Source: Dehalogenimonas lykanthroporepellens BL-DC-9
GTDB taxonomy: Bacteria; Chloroflexota; Dehalococcoidia; Dehalococcoidales; Dehalococcoidaceae
Length of the DNA: 64,000 bases
Assembly: GCA_000143165.1 (NCBI GenBank)
Contig: CP002084.1
Span: forward strand, 62,001-126,000
Direction of reading: 5' to 3'
Shown here: piece after piece, positions 47,152 through 54,524 of the stretch
Numbering within the stretch: position 1 is the first letter of the stretch
Layout: every line of letters starts with the position of its first letter
The notes under the pieces: generated by a model
What the model saw: the letters and a program-made list of their open reading frames with translations, nothing else
Told to the model about the DNA's origin: nothing
Database searches by the model: none
Made by a program: the position numbers and the translations under genes

Positions 47152-47180
47152 TTGACATCGATGGCATTGAACCCTATTAT
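47152..47180 (+). promoter_or_regulatory. Strong sigma-70 promoter of the five-gene ring/prenyl cluster
   Basis: TTGACA (47152-47157), 17-bp spacer, TATTAT (47175-47180), about 120 nt before the first methyltransferase. Read from consensus. Confidence 0.65.
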
Positions 47181-47303
47181 TTAGTACGATTCTTAACCGT
47201 TTCTTCAATTTATATAACATAACGCTGACAATGCACTGTAACCCTGCAAGGTTCCAGCCCGCTTTTGTGCGTTTTTGAGTAAATAACGGAGCAAGGAGAG
47301 CTC

Positions 47304-48068
47304 ATGGAAACAATCGCGCCGGTCAAAGATCCGGGACTGGAATCCGAGGAAGCCCGGAAACGTAAGGAATACATGGTAGACCTGTTCGTGGTACAGGCTA
47401 AGAACTACGATTTTCACGACGACATCTATGGTTTGTACGCCCATCGGTTCTGGATTCGTACCATGGTCAGGATTGTCGAAAAGTTTATGAAGAACCGGGA
47501 GCGCGCCGACATGCTGGATATGGGGTGCGGCACCGGTTTCGTCACCTTCAATGTCGCCCGAAAGATGAAGAATATCGACATCGAATCCTTCGACCTGTCG
47601 CCGGATATGATCGCTGTGGCCAAGGAACGCTATGAGAAAGGCTTCAAGGGGCGGAATATCAAGTTCTGGGTTGCCGATGCTGAACAGCCGTTCGGTGAGA
47701 ACAAGTACGATATCGTCACTACCTCCTTTGCCTATCGTAATTTCGCCAACAAGAACCTGGCGACCAAAAACGTTTTCAATGCCCTGAAACCTGGCGGTAT
47801 CTTCATCATCCAGGACCTGACCAAGCCGGAGAAGCAGCCGATGAAAGGCCTTTATGCCTTCTACATGAAATACATCCTGCCGGTACTGGCCAGGATACTG
47901 GGGACAGAAAAGACGGCCGCCGGCTGGCTGAAGAAGAGTACCGACATGATGCCGTCCAACGCCCAGATTCAGAAAATTCTGGAAGAAGCCGGCATGGTCA
48001 ACTGTTATTATAAGAGTCTCTCCGCTGGTATTGCCTGTATCATCGTCGGGTTCAAACCGGAGGCATAG
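47304..48068 (+). CDS. UbiE-like SAM methyltransferase 1 of the cluster
   Basis: 254 aa class I methyltransferase. Motif I is LDMGCGTGFVTF near residue 72, motif II is IESFDLSPDMI, and the post-I region VADAEQPFGENKYDIVT and LKPGGIFIIQDLTKPEK resemble UbiE/MenG, which methylate quinone rings. The N-terminus (PGLESEEARKRKEYM) is shared with the next gene, so the pair is a tandem duplication. A GGAGAG site precedes the ATG. It is the first gene after a strong promoter. The methyl acceptor is unknown. Confidence 0.88.
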   Translation: METIAPVKDPGLESEEARKRKEYMVDLFVVQAKNYDFHDDIYGLYAHRFWIRTMVRIVEKFMKNRERADMLDMGCGTGFVTFNVARKMKNIDIESFDLSPDMIAVAKERYEKGFKGRNIKFWVADAEQPFGENKYDIVTTSFAYRNFANKNLATKNVFNALKPGGIFIIQDLTKPEKQPMKGLYAFYMKYILPVLARILGTEKTAAGWLKKSTDMMPSNAQIQKILEEAGMVNCYYKSLSAGIACIIVGFKPEA

Positions 48069-48069
48069 G

Positions 48070-48840
48070 ATGGAGCAAGCAACAACAGCGGAAAAACCTC
48101 TCCAGGACCCCGGCTTTGAGTCAGAAACCGCCCGGAAGCGCAAGGCCTACATGCTGGAGCTTTTTGGCTATCAGGCGCCGAAGTACGATCTGCATGACGA
48201 TATCGTCGGCATGGGTATTCATCGTCGTTGGGTGAAGGACGTACTAAAGATTATCGGCCACTACCGGCAGGGTAAGTCGGACTTGAAGATGCTGGACCTG
48301 GCCTGCGGCACCGGCTTCGTCACCTTCAATACCGCTCGGCATTTCCCTGACATTGAAATAGACGCCTTTGACCTGGTACCGGAGATGGTCGATGTGGCCA
48401 AAGGTCGCTACGAGAAAGGCTTCAAGGAGCGGAACATCAAGTTCTGGGTTGCTGATGCTGAACAGCCGTTCGGTGAGAACAAGTACGATATCATCGCTAC
48501 CTGCTTTGCTTTCCGCAATTTCGCCAACAAGAACCTGGCCGCCCAGAACGTCTTCAAGGCGCTTAAACCTGGCGGCATGTTCATTATTCAGGATATGACC
48601 AAACCGGAAAAACAACCGTTGCGAGGTTTATATCTGTTCGCCTTGAAATACCTTCTGCCCATTGCTGGTACCATACTCGGGACGGCCAAGGGCTCACCGC
48701 GTTACCTGTATCATTCGGTGATGCTGTTGCCCAGGAACACCGATATTGCCCGGATTCTGACCGACAACGGTTTCTCTGACGTGTGGCATAAATACCAGAG
48801 CGGCGGCATGGGGACAGTGGTGGTGGGATATAAGAAATGA
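48070..48840 (+). CDS. UbiE-like SAM methyltransferase 2 of the cluster
   Basis: 256 aa paralogue of the preceding gene, one base after it. Motif I is LDLACGTGFVTF. It shares long blocks with the first copy (RYEKGFK, RNIKFWVADAEQPFGENKYD, FANKNLA) but differs in the C-terminal third, so the two probably methylate different positions or intermediates. The ATG follows AGGCATAGG. Its stop overlaps the cyclase start (ATGA). Confidence 0.88.
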   Translation: MEQATTAEKPLQDPGFESETARKRKAYMLELFGYQAPKYDLHDDIVGMGIHRRWVKDVLKIIGHYRQGKSDLKMLDLACGTGFVTFNTARHFPDIEIDAFDLVPEMVDVAKGRYEKGFKERNIKFWVADAEQPFGENKYDIIATCFAFRNFANKNLAAQNVFKALKPGGMFIIQDMTKPEKQPLRGLYLFALKYLLPIAGTILGTAKGSPRYLYHSVMLLPRNTDIARILTDNGFSDVWHKYQSGGMGTVVVGYKK

Positions 48841-49943
48841 CGAGGCACATGGCTGAATTACAGGCGTTCAAGTATGATATTGGTAGCGGGCGTTACCGCC
48901 CCATTTACCTGGGCCGGGATATCCTGGACCGCCTGGCGGAATGTGTCCAGCCGCTTCAAGCCGACAAGTTTTTTATCATCACAGATGATAATGTGGCTGA
49001 CGCTTACCTGGAGCCGGTCAAGGCCGAGTTGTCCAAGGTGGCCGAAACCCACGCCTTCATTTTTCCGGCCGGTGAGCAGTCCAAGACGTTGTCCACCCTG
49101 GAAAAACTGGGCTCTCAGGTGCTGGATGCCAGGGCGACCAAGTCTTCGGTCATTGTCTGCCTGGGCGGCGGCGTAGTCGGCAATCTAGGCGGCCTGCTGG
49201 CAGCGCTGTTGTTCCGCGGCATTCGTTTCTTCCATGTGCCGACCACCATGGTCGCTCAGATTGATTCAGCCATCGGCCAGAAACAGGCGGTTAACTACAG
49301 CCGGGGCAAGAATCTGTTCGGTCAGTATTACCCGCCGGAGTTCGTCTTCATTGACTTCGGTTTCCTGAGGAAACTGCCGGAGCGGCAGATTCGCGCCGGT
49401 CTGGCCGAGTCGGTCAAGCACGGGTTGTGTCAGGAAGAGAGTTTCTTCGAGTATATCAAGGATAAAGCCCCGAATTTCTCGTGGGAAGACATCGAGTATA
49501 TTTCAGCTCATACCATCGAACTCAAACTGGAACTTCTGGTCATCGACCCGTATGAGGGCAAGCTTGACCCTCAGCTGGAACTGGGCCATACCATCGGTCA
49601 CGCTCTGGAAATCCGCAAGAACGGCCGGCTTCTTCACGGCGAGTCCATTGCCATCGGCATGACGGTTGAAGCCTGTATTTCAGCCGAGATGGGTTTCATG
49701 GAGCCGGAGCTGGCCGAAAGAATCAGGGCCATATTCGAAAAAATCGGTCTGCCGACCCGGATTCCGGCCGACATCACCGTCGACCAGATTCTGGAAACGC
49801 TGACCTTCGATAACAAGCGGCGCACCGCGATCAATGATTTTTTCCTCCTTGAAAAATTCGCCTGCTTCCACAAGGAGAACGGCAGGATTTCCTGCAAGGT
49901 TCCGGAGCCGCTGTTGAGGCAGGTTCTTGAGCGTTCGTACTAG
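48837..49943 (+). CDS. Sugar-phosphate cyclase, dehydroquinate-synthase-like but atypical
   Basis: 368 aa, NAD- and metal-dependent cyclase of the AroB superfamily. NAD-binding LGGGVVGNLGG, substrate loop QIDSAIGQK with AVN and GKN, GLAESVKHG and the metal-binding GHTIGHALE with LLHGESIAIGM are present. However, the region before GHT reads DPYEGKLDPQLELGHT, so the Arg and Asn that dehydroquinate synthases have there are Asp and Glu. This is expected of other members such as inosose or valiolone synthases rather than AroB itself. No shikimate genes are near. An ATG at 48849 is an alternative start. Confidence 0.8.
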   Translation: MTRHMAELQAFKYDIGSGRYRPIYLGRDILDRLAECVQPLQADKFFIITDDNVADAYLEPVKAELSKVAETHAFIFPAGEQSKTLSTLEKLGSQVLDARATKSSVIVCLGGGVVGNLGGLLAALLFRGIRFFHVPTTMVAQIDSAIGQKQAVNYSRGKNLFGQYYPPEFVFIDFGFLRKLPERQIRAGLAESVKHGLCQEESFFEYIKDKAPNFSWEDIEYISAHTIELKLELLVIDPYEGKLDPQLELGHTIGHALEIRKNGRLLHGESIAIGMTVEACISAEMGFMEPELAERIRAIFEKIGLPTRIPADITVDQILETLTFDNKRRTAINDFFLLEKFACFHKENGRISCKVPEPLLRQVLERSY

Positions 49944-50853
49944 CGCCGCCGGAGTGCCCTTCAACTACTGGGTTCAGGCCGCCCGGCTGAAGTTTCTGCC
50001 GCAGGGGGTTCTGCCGGTATTCATCGGTGGTGCCGCGGCTTTCGCTGACGGGGTTTTTCACGCCGGTTATTTTGCGCTGGCGTTTCTGGCGGCGGCCGCT
50101 GTTCAGGTCGGCCTGACCATGTTCAATGACACCCTGGACTTCCAGTATGGCACCGACCGTACCACTCCGGACGCCAAGAATCCGTTTTCTGGCGGGTCGG
50201 GCATCCTGGCTTCGGGGCGCATCGCGCCATCTCAGGCGATGCGGGCCATCGTCGGTTTATATGTCTTAGCCCTGGCGGTGGCGGTTTTTTTCGCCTTCGT
50301 CACCGGGCCGATAAGTCTGGGCATCGCCGCGGTCGGGGCGGCAATTTCCATTGTGTATTCCGCCAGGCCGTTCCGCCTGGCCTACCGCGGCCTGGGTGAG
50401 CTGTCGATGCTGGTCGGCTATGGGCCGGTCATCACCGGCTGGGCCTATTATGTCCACAGCGGTACCCTGACGGGTGATATTCTGCTGGCCGGCCTGGTGC
50501 CCGGGCTGTGCATGTGGACGATGATACTTATCAATGAAATTCCGGATTATGCCGAAGATCGGGCGGCAGGCAAGAAAAACCTGACCTACCGGCTGGGTCC
50601 GGCCGGTGCCAAGAATCTTTTCATCGGGTCCCTGGCCGGGATATACGCCTACTCCGGAATACTGATTGCCGTCGGTATCGTTCCGGTAGCTGCTGTGCTG
50701 ATATTCGCCGGGTTGCCGCTGGCCTTTGCGGCGGCGCGGTCAGCCGCCCGGTATTACCGGGATCCGCTCCGGGTGGCAGTAGCCAATAAATATATGGTGA
50801 TGGTCTATTCCGTCACCAATATCGGGCTGACTTTGGGATTTATTATCGGATGA
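49927..50853 (+). CDS. UbiA-family prenyltransferase (MenA-like)
   Basis: 308 aa, about eight to nine helices. The two Asp-rich motifs are NDTLDFQYGTD near residue 60 and NEIPDYAED near residue 200, which bind the prenyl diphosphate through Mg. AARLKFLPQGVLPVFIGG at the start resembles MenA. It would attach an isoprenoid chain to a ring made by the upstream genes. The TTG start lies 17 bp inside the cyclase gene with GAGGCAGG upstream, so it is coupled to the cyclase. Confidence 0.88.
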   Translation: MSVRTSAAGVPFNYWVQAARLKFLPQGVLPVFIGGAAAFADGVFHAGYFALAFLAAAAVQVGLTMFNDTLDFQYGTDRTTPDAKNPFSGGSGILASGRIAPSQAMRAIVGLYVLALAVAVFFAFVTGPISLGIAAVGAAISIVYSARPFRLAYRGLGELSMLVGYGPVITGWAYYVHSGTLTGDILLAGLVPGLCMWTMILINEIPDYAEDRAAGKKNLTYRLGPAGAKNLFIGSLAGIYAYSGILIAVGIVPVAAVLIFAGLPLAFAAARSAARYYRDPLRVAVANKYMVMVYSVTNIGLTLGFIIG

Positions 50854-50864
50854 GAGGTTGATAC

Positions 50865-51476
50865 ATGGTCGAACCACGGTTTTTTGAGAAAATTGCCCCT
50901 GCCTACGATTTCCTGACCCGACTGTTTATGGGCGGAACCTATGAAAGCATGCGTAAAAGGATGCTTGATGAGGATACCTCGCAGATGGATATCCTCGACC
51001 TGTGTTGCGGCACCGGCTACATCTGCAACACCATCGAAGCCCGGCGAATTGTCGGTCTGGACCAGTCCGATGCCATGCTGGCCCGCAACGCCAAAGTTCG
51101 GCGGGAGAACAAGACACTCATCAAGGGCAATGCCTACCAGATGGATTTCAAACCGGGCGAATTCGACCGCGTCTACAACTCCAGCGCTTCTCATGAGTTC
51201 AAGCTGTTTTCCCGACTGCTGACCAAGAGTTTCGAAATTCTGAAACCGGGCGGCAAGATCATCATCTTCGATATCTACCAGCCGAAGAATCCCGTACTGT
51301 CCTTTTTCATGAATACCTTCGTGCGTTATGTGGTGGAGCGGGGCATAATGTTCGTTCACACCAGGGAAGAATGGGAGAAGATGCTGACCGAGGCCGGCTT
51401 CATCATCGAGGAGTTGGACGTGGTACGCGGTCTGTATATTTTCGCCCGGGCGCGCAAACCTGAAGAAGCGTCGTAA
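50865..51476 (+). CDS. SAM methyltransferase 3 of the cluster
   Basis: 203 aa class I methyltransferase. Motif I is LDLCCGTGYIC near residue 44; IVGLDQSDAMLARN follows and LKPGGKIIIFDIYQPK is the later strand. It is only distantly like the two UbiE copies, closer to general Methyltransf_11 proteins. It follows the prenyltransferase by 11 bp with GAGAGGTTG upstream, so it is the last gene of the unit. It may act on the prenylated product. Confidence 0.85.
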   Translation: MVEPRFFEKIAPAYDFLTRLFMGGTYESMRKRMLDEDTSQMDILDLCCGTGYICNTIEARRIVGLDQSDAMLARNAKVRRENKTLIKGNAYQMDFKPGEFDRVYNSSASHEFKLFSRLLTKSFEILKPGGKIIIFDIYQPKNPVLSFFMNTFVRYVVERGIMFVHTREEWEKMLTEAGFIIEELDVVRGLYIFARARKPEEAS

Positions 51477-51541
51477 TTGTTAATTACCAGGGAAAAAGTG
51501 GTATAATGCCACTTCAGAGAAAAGGAGGGAACTATCAAATT

Positions 51542-51868
51542 ATGGGATTGACACTGGGTGAAGCCACACGTCACATTGTCAACAAAAACTATGCGATAGT
51601 GTCCGCCGACCTCTTTGAAGAGTGTCTGGGACGCAAGTACGAAGGTAAAGCCAATATCCCGGCCAGGGAAAAGACCACCTGGCCCATGAAGATCGAAGAG
51701 AAGCTCAAGACTGTCCATCAGGCCAAGCTGGAAGAGGGCGAGTTCAAATGGACCCGGCAGGATATCGGCTCCGACACCTATCTGGACGTCAAGCTCTGGC
51801 TGGAAGAAGAACTGGGTATTCCCCATTCGGAAGTGGATCGCGGTTTCAAACTGGGTGTCATCAACTGA
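51542..51868 (+). CDS. Hypothetical small acidic protein
   Basis: 108 aa, not recognised. Mixed helical with Trp, Lys and Glu richness (KTTWPMKIEEKLKTVHQAKL) and no membrane segment. AGGAGG lies 14 nt before the ATG at 51542, longer than usual; an upstream ATG at 51506 falls in the TATAAT box (51502-51507) of a likely promoter. A terminator follows, so it is a single-gene unit. Confidence 0.65.
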   Translation: MGLTLGEATRHIVNKNYAIVSADLFEECLGRKYEGKANIPAREKTTWPMKIEEKLKTVHQAKLEEGEFKWTRQDIGSDTYLDVKLWLEEELGIPHSEVDRGFKLGVIN

Positions 51869-51892
51869 CATATCTTTTCCACCGAGCAACAG

Positions 51893-51923
51893 CCAGCCGC
51901 CGAAAAGCGGCTGGTTTTCTTTT
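51893..51923 (+). terminator. Terminator
   Basis: CCAGCCGC/GCGGCTGG stem with CGAAAA loop, followed by TTTTCTTTT. It ends the 51542-51868 gene. Confidence 0.9.
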
Positions 51924-52491: not shown

Positions 52492-52968
52492 CTAAACCGC
52501 GACGACGCTGTCATGCGGATGTTTCCGTGAAGCTTGCAAAGATTTAATTTCAGACTTAATCAGTTTGTCCAAAATTGTTTGAAAAGCTGTTTGTTCCTCC
52601 GGGGTCAGGGAAGAAAAAACAGAAACAAAACAATCTGTCATTAGAACCGGGTCAAAAGCGTTTTTCCCTGCCTCGGTTATACTGATTATATGCTTGCGTG
52701 TTCCGGTGACAACCCGAGAGCTGACAAACCCCTTGTCTTTCAACCGGCCCACCAGGCGAATTATGGTGCTACGCTCTTTGAGCGTTATAGCCATCAAATC
52801 TTCAATCAGGTAGTCTTGGCCATCATATATGGCATGTAGCAATCCCCCTTGTTCCGGGGGCATGGATTTAACTTGGGCCATCTCTCTTATCAATATCCGG
52901 TCCATTAAAGTTTTTGCCTGAGCCAGCAAACAGCCCAAACCAATTTCTTTTTCGGGGTAACGGTCCAC
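52492..52968 (-). CDS. rdhR: MarR-family regulator divergent from rdhA4
   Basis: 158 aa winged-helix regulator. The DNA-binding part is LMAITLKERSTIIRLVGRL followed by the wing VVTGTRKHIISITEAG. The MarR type, lying divergent to an rdhA, is the arrangement known for RdhR of Dehalococcoides, where the regulator represses or controls the neighbour. The 146-bp gap holds two palindromic sites. The symbol is given by analogy. Confidence 0.88.
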   Translation of the reverse strand: MDRYPEKEIGLGCLLAQAKTLMDRILIREMAQVKSMPPEQGGLLHAIYDGQDYLIEDLMAITLKERSTIIRLVGRLKDKGFVSSRVVTGTRKHIISITEAGKNAFDPVLMTDCFVSVFSSLTPEEQTAFQTILDKLIKSEIKSLQASRKHPHDSVVAV

Positions 52969-53082: not shown

Positions 53083-53114
53083 TGTAAGGATAAGTAATGA
53101 GAAGGGAGAAAGTA

Positions 53115-54524
53115 ATGACATCAAGGTTTCATTCAACGGTTTCAAGACGTGACTTTATGAAAGGGCTCGGGCTGGCCGGCACCGGGGTGGGTGTTGCGGC
53201 CGCCGCGGCTACCGGGTTTCATGACCTGGATGAATTAGCCGGTTCGTATGAGCAGAAACGTGATTGGTGGATTCGGGAGAGGGATTATGAGGATATTACC
53301 ACCGAGGTTGATTGGAATACGTATCAGGCGTATGACCCCCAAGCCCATCCTGGTGTTCCAGTTTCAGAGGCGGTGAGAGCTGCCACCCAGGCGCGTGTCG
53401 CCAACGACAAGGCTGAAGGCCTGGCCGGAAGATTGCCTGGTTACGACCGCCGCGGTATGGCCTGGTATGCCGCTTCAGGGCAATTTAATTTCAACGTGCC
53501 TTGGACCGGCGCAGACAGTTGCTGGAAACCATCCGAAGGTGATAACGCTTCACCATATAATGAAAGTCCGGAATATAACCTCCAGGTATTAAGAGCCGCC
53601 TTTCATTCATTCGGCACGCCTGCAGTAGGTGTAATTGAGTTGAATGAACACATGAAGAGGTTGTTTAATAAAGGGCTGTGCGTATGGGAGGATATTGAAG
53701 AGCCTTATCAGGATGAGCAAAGACTTTATCATATCCCCAACAAATGCAAATGGTTGGTGGTTTGGGAAAGTCAGATGACTCAAAATCAAGGCATTTTTGG
53801 TTATTCCAAAAATCCTGACACTCTTAGCGGTTATGGTTCATCTGTGCCCTTGGGCAGGATGGATATGCAAGGTTATGATTGGGCCGGTTCGGTATGGAAT
53901 CGTGCCACCTCATTTATTAAGGGTTTGGGCTATTATGCTCTCAGACCGGGCGGTATGATGCCGTCTCAAAACACCGCGTATGGCGTTTTTGCCGGGCTTT
54001 CCGAGCAAGGGCGCCCTAACTATCGCATGAGCCCCGGTTGGGGTCTTTGTAGCCGCTATGCTGACTCTGCGATTACGGATATGCCTTTAGCTCCGACCAA
54101 ACCGATTGATTTCGGCGGTCACCGCTTTTGTAATACCTGTAAACGTTGCGGTGAGGTCTGCCCCAGTCAGTCAATCGATATGAGTGATGAGCCGAGTTGG
54201 GACACCGTAGTTCCCCGCAATAATCCAGGTATCAAAGCCTTCTGGATGAATTGGGATACCTGTTCAGGTTTCGGCGCTCCGGTTCACTGCGGTATCTGCC
54301 AGCCTACCTGCCCCTTCAACCATCCGTCAGAGGCCATTATCCATCCGGTTGTTAGAGCCGTAGCCGGCACTACCGGTATTTTTAACGGCTTCTTTGCCAA
54401 TATGGACAGAGCCTTTGGTTATGGGGAAGTGCGTTCTGCGGATGACATAGAGGGCTGGTGGACGCGAGACCTCTCAACATACAAGGGCGATACTATTAAC
54501 GGTGCCGGCAAATTTAACTGGTAA
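53115..54524 (+). CDS. rdhA: Reductive dehalogenase catalytic subunit, intact (rdhA4)
   Basis: 469 aa, the most diverged of the four rdhA. Tat motif SRRDFMKGLGL at residues 9-19. First ferredoxin set C339, C342, C345, C349 (CNTCKRCGEVC) is followed by Pro as usual. The second set C383, C392, C395, C399 has CX2CX3C spacing (CGICQPTC), unlike rdhA1-3. GGGAGA precedes the chosen ATG; another ATG at 53097 is possible. It lacks the twin-hairpin leader, and its visible base composition is more AT-rich. No rdhB is adjacent. The substrate is unknown. Confidence 0.95.
   Translation: MTSRFHSTVSRRDFMKGLGLAGTGVGVAAAAATGFHDLDELAGSYEQKRDWWIRERDYEDITTEVDWNTYQAYDPQAHPGVPVSEAVRAATQARVANDKAEGLAGRLPGYDRRGMAWYAASGQFNFNVPWTGADSCWKPSEGDNASPYNESPEYNLQVLRAAFHSFGTPAVGVIELNEHMKRLFNKGLCVWEDIEEPYQDEQRLYHIPNKCKWLVVWESQMTQNQGIFGYSKNPDTLSGYGSSVPLGRMDMQGYDWAGSVWNRATSFIKGLGYYALRPGGMMPSQNTAYGVFAGLSEQGRPNYRMSPGWGLCSRYADSAITDMPLAPTKPIDFGGHRFCNTCKRCGEVCPSQSIDMSDEPSWDTVVPRNNPGIKAFWMNWDTCSGFGAPVHCGICQPTCPFNHPSEAIIHPVVRAVAGTTGIFNGFFANMDRAFGYGEVRSADDIEGWWTRDLSTYKGDTINGAGKFNW

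Follow-up and report, generated by a model that had tools for sequence, protein, structure and literature searches.

Gene organization of the cluster

The stretch analysed here, hereafter the window, comprises 64,000 nucleotides of Dehalogenimonas lykanthroporepellens BL-DC-9 (bases 62001-126000 of the single-contig genome of 1,686,510 bp, CP002084.1) and carries a group of five co-directional open reading frames (ORFs) at 47304-51476 of the plus strand, which overlap or are separated by gaps of a few bases. They encode two UbiE/COQ5-type methyltransferases (MT1 and MT2), a sugar-phosphate cyclase, a MenA-like prenyltransferase of the UbiA superfamily and a third methyltransferase (MT3), confirming the five-gene cluster that an earlier note had placed here from the letters alone. 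Here it is proposed, with moderate confidence, that this operon encodes a pathway to a polyprenylated, repeatedly methylated six-membered-ring lipid, benzoquinol-like, whose head would derive from glucose-6-phosphate. The features of the locus are as follows, DOIS standing for 2-deoxy-scyllo-inosose synthase and SAM for S-adenosylmethionine.

47152..47180, plus strand: promoter-like site of sigma-70 type (TTGACA-17-TATTAT), 11 of 12 consensus matches
47304..48068, plus strand: MT1, UbiE/COQ5-type methyltransferase, 254 aa; Arg of the RNF motif kept (R145)
48070..48840, plus strand: MT2, second UbiE/COQ5-type methyltransferase, 256 aa; 57% identity to MT1, RNF Arg kept
48837..49943, plus strand: predicted DOIS-type sugar-phosphate cyclase, 368 aa; K149, E248, N116, Q150, N326; metal ligands E191/H251/H267
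49927..50853, plus strand: MenA-like UbiA-superfamily prenyltransferase, 308 aa; motifs NDTLDFQYGTD and NEIPDYAED
50865..51476, plus strand: MT3, class I SAM methyltransferase, 203 aa; SASHEFK motif conserved, RNF Arg absent
51506..51868, plus strand: small conserved ORF, 120 aa, family not assigned; probable sixth gene of the transcription unit
51891..51916, plus strand: intrinsic-terminator-like hairpin, 10-bp stem with T-rich tail, just 3' of the 120-aa ORF

The single strong promoter of the earlier note was found as a site with 11 of 12 matches; however, promoter-like sites of this general kind occur in the region at chance level (four found, 4.0 expected), and for this reason both the promoter at 47152 upstream of MT1 and its strength are graded only as plausible. 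The transcription unit likely extends past MT3, through the 120-aa ORF, to the terminator at 51891-51916. This small ORF, which has no match in Pfam or NCBIfam, adjoins MT3 in the Dehalogenimonas genomes examined and is not beside the cluster in Dehalococcoides. An Rfam scan and a tRNA scan of the window were both empty.

Conservation of the cluster

In the class, for which 197 genomes were searched, the cyclase was confined to Dehalogenimonas and its sister genus, where 10 of 10 genomes have it; every other class match among those listed had at most 39% identity. Within the order, the cluster is present in 14 of 156 Dehalococcoidales genomes, namely all 11 Dehalococcoidaceae and three metagenome-assembled genomes (MAGs) of two other families, and is missing from the other 142 genomes searched. 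All 11 Dehalogenimonas and Dehalococcoides genomes, as well as MAG G684, have the genes arranged as MT1-MT2-cyclase-UbiA-MT3, while a contig end cuts MT3 in MAG G606 and another falls inside UbiA in MAG G607 (the three MAG contigs correspond to loci L044-L046 of another genome collection). That the genes stay together so consistently goes far beyond what chance would give. Of the two results that the earlier note had named as refuting, a cluster not conserved as a unit and a cyclase that is the only AroB beside complete shikimate genes, neither occurred; the conservation, however, does not extend across Dehalococcoidia but is limited to these lineages.

The surroundings of the cluster vary, since engA, plsY and gpsA border it in some Dehalogenimonas only, whereas D. 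mccartyi (genome G098, presumably strain 195) and G684 share a different site, with thiL, tsaE, tsaB and ndk on one side and ksgA, ispE and rubrerythrin on the other (names assigned by reading the sequences). Pairwise ratios of nonsynonymous to synonymous substitution (dN/dS) of the cluster genes, calculated only for pairs with unsaturated synonymous sites, are 0.02-0.12, within or below the range of engA and gpsA. Because the flanks change while the cluster genes are constrained like housekeeping genes, the cluster appears to be under selection and functional rather than a relic.

The cyclase is distinct from AroB

The genome encodes a second member of the dehydroquinate synthase (DHQS) superfamily, a canonical AroB, inside a complete shikimate operon with 3-deoxy-D-arabino-heptulosonate 7-phosphate (DAHP) synthase, AroB, AroD, AroE, AroK, AroA, AroC, prephenate dehydratase and prephenate dehydrogenase (all named by reading the sequences, AroB also by searches), which rules out that the cluster cyclase is the sole AroB. 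The cluster cyclase has the domains PF01761 and DHQS_C and reaches 284.2 bits against the aroB model TIGR01357, below its cut-off of 305, aroB still being the best NCBIfam model; its earlier description as atypical is borne out. All the cluster cyclases compared have a Glu and the motifs GGGxxGN, KQ-(A)-(V/I)-N and DNKR, whereas in the diagnostic alignment every AroB/DHQS row shows Asn, within the LNxGHT motif, at the position of this Glu, GGGxxGD instead of GN and DKK instead of DNK. An Arg that DHQS and amino-DHQS conserve just ahead of the GH motif is also missing from the cluster cyclase. In one tree, DHQS forms its own clade, and in a second tree, with amino-DHQS, S7P cyclases (sedoheptulose-7-phosphate cyclases) and EboD added, a clade of the cluster enzymes with DHQS and amino-DHQS was rejected (approximately unbiased test, p-AU 0.01). 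Judged from these sequence comparisons, the cluster cyclase appears not to be AroB, and the DHQS label would be wrong. The weaker cyclase matches in the order (L177-L190) are AroBs, as is one of the two next-best Chloroflexota matches (L157), which lies beside aroK, while the other (L156) belongs to a separate cyclase lineage and has no UbiA or UbiE neighbors. In L156 (7332-8495), a sugar-phosphate cyclase, Gln takes the place of the DOIS Glu, and the protein sits alone on a long branch that falls on the DOIS side of the tree.

The cyclase resembles 2-deoxy-scyllo-inosose synthases

The two best PDB sequence relatives of the cyclase are a plant DHQS and BtrC, the DOIS of butirosin biosynthesis. 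In the BtrC alignment, Lys149 corresponds to BtrC Lys141, which we take to be the Lys of the active site, and Glu248 to BtrC Glu243, which we take to be the residue that sets DOIS apart from DHQS, where it is Asn; the metal-binding E191, H251 and H267 are also conserved. The cluster cyclases have in common 8 of 14 DOIS-specific alignment columns, compared to 0 of 74 for amino-DHQS, 2 of 15 for sedoheptulose-7-phosphate (S7P) cyclases, 0 of 51 for EboD and 1 of 11 for DHQS. In the tree that includes amino-DHQS, S7P cyclases and EboD, the cluster enzymes, DOIS and the Ktedonobacteria-like enzyme (L156) fall on one side with support of 100/96. An identity as EboD or as a sedoheptulose-phosphate enzyme was ruled out by this tree together with the class-specific columns.

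The cluster cyclase and BtrC/DOIS (PDB 2gru/2d2x) have the same NAD-binding fold, the same metal ligands, the equivalents of Lys141 and Glu243 and the motifs GGGxxGN, KQAVN and DNKR; the cluster cyclase differs in being only 32-38% identical, in forming its own clade, in having Gly for Ser at position 147 and in lying beside a prenyltransferase and methyltransferases instead of an aminoglycoside-pathway aminotransferase or glycosyltransferase. A DOIS-type head step appears well supported, and from the DOIS-specific residues and the side of the tree, the cyclization of glucose-6-phosphate is predicted. Among the substrates that the earlier note had named, the residues point to glucose-6-phosphate and speak against an enzyme for DAHP or S7P. 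Glucose-6-phosphate is probably available in the cell, since a PGI/PMI-family isomerase is present in the genome.

The comparison also brought up two DOIS-like genes in other settings. In a Clostridia MAG, a DOIS-like cyclase (L047, 7917-9056) lies directly after two non-ribosomal peptide synthetase genes, suggesting an unexplored aminocyclitol-containing peptide. On a Streptomyces plasmid (L131, 5854-10494), genes for an aminotransferase and for an inosamine-phosphate amidinotransferase adjoin a DOIS-like gene whose annotation is hypothetical; together they could be an aminoglycoside-like cluster.

Prenylation and methylation genes

The UbiA protein of the cluster is the sole PF01040 protein of the D. 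lykanthroporepellens genome, and D. mccartyi 195 likewise has one. MenA models rank best for it, all below cut-off, and both Asp-rich motifs are kept. Each of the two genomes has one trans-polyprenyl-diphosphate synthase (PF00348; L125 1399-2373 and L124 1399-2373), which ranks with heptaprenyl and solanesyl synthases and is therefore of the long-chain type by model ranking. In D. mccartyi 195 and in MAG G684, a distance of about 7 kb separates its gene from the cluster. A single trans-prenyl synthase of the long-chain type raises the question of where the farnesyl diphosphate for cell-wall lipid carriers comes from.

MT1 scores just over the cut-off of TIGR01934 (158.6 against 158.35 bits) and MT2 below it (144.7 bits). 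Among proteins of solved structure, MT1 is best matched by yeast COQ5, an enzyme of ubiquinone biosynthesis; the Arg of the RNF motif, which we take to be the catalytic base in COQ5, is present in MT1 and MT2 and absent from MT3. The non-cyclase genes point to quinol-type tailoring. In the MAG of L044 (2560-4093), and not in the other genomes, the tree pairs MT1 with MT2, as though one copy had overwritten the other.

The known genes for quinone head groups that were tested were not found in the genome: the matches to MenD reach 72-78 bits against a cut-off of 244, and the searches for MqnA/D and UbiD gave none, in agreement with the previous statement that men and ubi pathway genes are missing. 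As in menaquinone biosynthesis (MenA and UbiE/MenG), the cluster has a prenyltransferase that ranks with MenA and two methyltransferases of the UbiE family; however, the place expected for the naphthoate genes is taken by a DOIS-type cyclase. Methyl-plastoquinone (mPQ) of Nitrospirota offers a similar case of a recently discovered, lineage-specific quinone route built from homologs of ubiquinone, plastoquinone and menaquinone enzymes in genomes seemingly free of quinones, although MT1 and MT2 reach only 118.2 and 111.4 bits to MpqE, against a cut-off of 335.

Proposed pathway and alternative explanations

In the proposed pathway, the DOIS-type cyclase would convert glucose-6-phosphate to a polyhydroxycyclohexanone, 2-deoxy-scyllo-inosose (DOI) or a close relative, whose ring would be dehydrated toward a di- or trihydroxybenzene by this variant cyclase itself or by enzymes encoded elsewhere. 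The MenA-like UbiA protein would then add a long polyprenyl chain supplied by the single trans-polyprenyl-diphosphate synthase, MT1 and MT2 would C-methylate the ring and MT3 would probably O-methylate it. The resulting lipid would resemble a benzoquinol and act in the membrane as redox carrier or radical quencher, and its synthesis would not draw on the chorismate-derived precursors of menaquinone and ubiquinone. The substrate, the aromatization, the order of the steps and the redox role are predictions of this scheme, which retains the sequence of cyclization, prenylation and methylation from the earlier note as the best reading of the gene content. DOI can be aromatized chemically; a literature search on DOI and hydroquinone found no paper, and to our knowledge the product of the cluster has never been observed. 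The likeliest product is a sugar-derived, polyprenylated and methylated ring, plausibly a quinone; the new lipid carrier or protectant suggested before is an inference.

Several points weigh against this proposal. The cluster has no gene for the aromatization of the ring, and UbiA enzymes are able to prenylate non-aromatic acceptors too. The exact clade of cluster enzymes and DOIS without L156 has support of only 68/23, at position 147 the cyclase has the Gly of DHQS in place of the Ser of DOIS, and the homology to DOIS rests on one biochemically characterized reference (BtrC) and annotated relatives. The predicted structure of the cyclase (predicted local distance difference test score, pLDDT, of 91; Z 44.5 to 2gru, a DOIS, and Z 49.7 to a DHQS) fits DHQS and DOIS alike and the structure search does not separate them, so that the DOIS assignment rests on residues and tree. 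Reductive dehalogenases (RdhA), whose association with the cluster counts in favor of the proposal, occur in 13 of the 14 genomes of the order that carry it versus 21 of the 142 without it, but this association (Fisher p 4e-9) is not corrected for shared ancestry. Finally, D. mccartyi has been reported to be free of quinones, to grow without them and to be insensitive to the inhibitor 2-heptyl-4-hydroxyquinoline N-oxide (HQNO) (PMC10772276).

The lack of a dehydratase or oxidoreductase in the operon and the reports of quinone-free Dehalococcoides (PMC10772276) would also fit a prenylated, methylated cyclitol that is neither aromatic nor redox-active, a polyhydroxycyclohexane or cyclohexenone acting as membrane stabilizer or protectant, as proposed for ebo; this is the foremost alternative, although an improbable one. 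Its precedent is the ebo operon (EboA-F), in which a sugar-phosphate cyclase (EboD) and a UbiA-superfamily protein (EboC) are likewise encoded in one conserved operon, whose product was read as an isoprenoid-cyclitol (PMC5133447). However, EboD belongs to another clade, with the S7P cyclases, and has Asp at the position of Glu248; EboC and the cluster UbiA show a short, weak similarity in a pairwise test (97 columns, 28%, E 8e-4); the ebo operon has no UbiE genes; and neither the five genes of the cluster nor those directly beside them include eboA/B/E/F. Two UbiE/COQ5-type proteins with the RNF Arg, a MenA-like prenyltransferase and a long-chain-type polyprenyl synthase are tools of quinol maturation, and UbiE-type enzymes methylate aromatic quinols, which favors the proposed benzoquinol-like lipid.

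That the cyclase is instead a diverged DHQ or amino-DHQ synthase, providing a shikimate-type C7 ring to the prenyltransferase, is quite unlikely: its overall identity to DHQS equals that to DOIS (34% each), the fold is the same and aroB is its best NCBIfam model, but the Asn/GD/DKK signature of the compared AroBs and the Arg before GH are replaced by DOIS-specific residues or missing, the tree rejects the DHQS grouping and the genome already has a canonical AroB. The reading of the cluster as what is left of a menaquinone pathway, decayed or repurposed after the loss of quinone respiration, could draw on the presence of genes of MenA and UbiE type where MenD and MqnA/D are missing and on the description of Dehalococcoides quinone pathways as incomplete (PMC2930330). 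It is largely refuted by the strict co-conservation with the cyclase and by the strong purifying selection (dN/dS), which leave it a very slim chance. We know of no menaquinone pathway that uses such a cyclase.

Neighboring genes

Downstream of the cluster, an ORF at 53097-54524 resembles the catalytic subunit of a reductive dehalogenase, with a Tat-like start (RRDFMKG) and Fe-S cysteines. It is preceded by a MarR-like regulator (52492-52968, minus strand), and no obvious ORF for the membrane anchor rdhB follows it.

Implications for organohalide-respiring Chloroflexota

Dehalococcoides and Dehalogenimonas have been called quinone-independent in reviews and experiments (PMC10772276, PMC5736913, PMC10624902), and a 2005 paper, by its title as cited in PMC2930330 and PMC10772276, reported ubiquinone-8 in Dehalococcoides. 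In OmeB, a subunit of the organohalide-respiration complex, a pocket for a quinone is predicted, with no known quinone to fill it (PMC10772276). A survey of 26,264 genomes counted Chloroflexota with the main groups that lack quinone pathways, and suggested that there may be undiscovered quinones (PMC13386864). A more tentative extension of the proposal, which is doubtful at present, is that both genera make an unseen respiratory quinone with a ring formed from glucose-6-phosphate by the DOIS-type cyclase, and that this quinone could occupy the OmeB pocket.

Chlorinated solvents are detoxified by these bacteria, whose way of forming a proton gradient without quinones is still a question; the operon offers a concrete and testable candidate for an undiscovered quinone. 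If the proposal is true, a cyclase type of aminoglycoside antibiotics would have been carried into lipid metabolism, and a new origin of quinone head groups would stand beside the chorismate-derived and tyrosine-derived rings.

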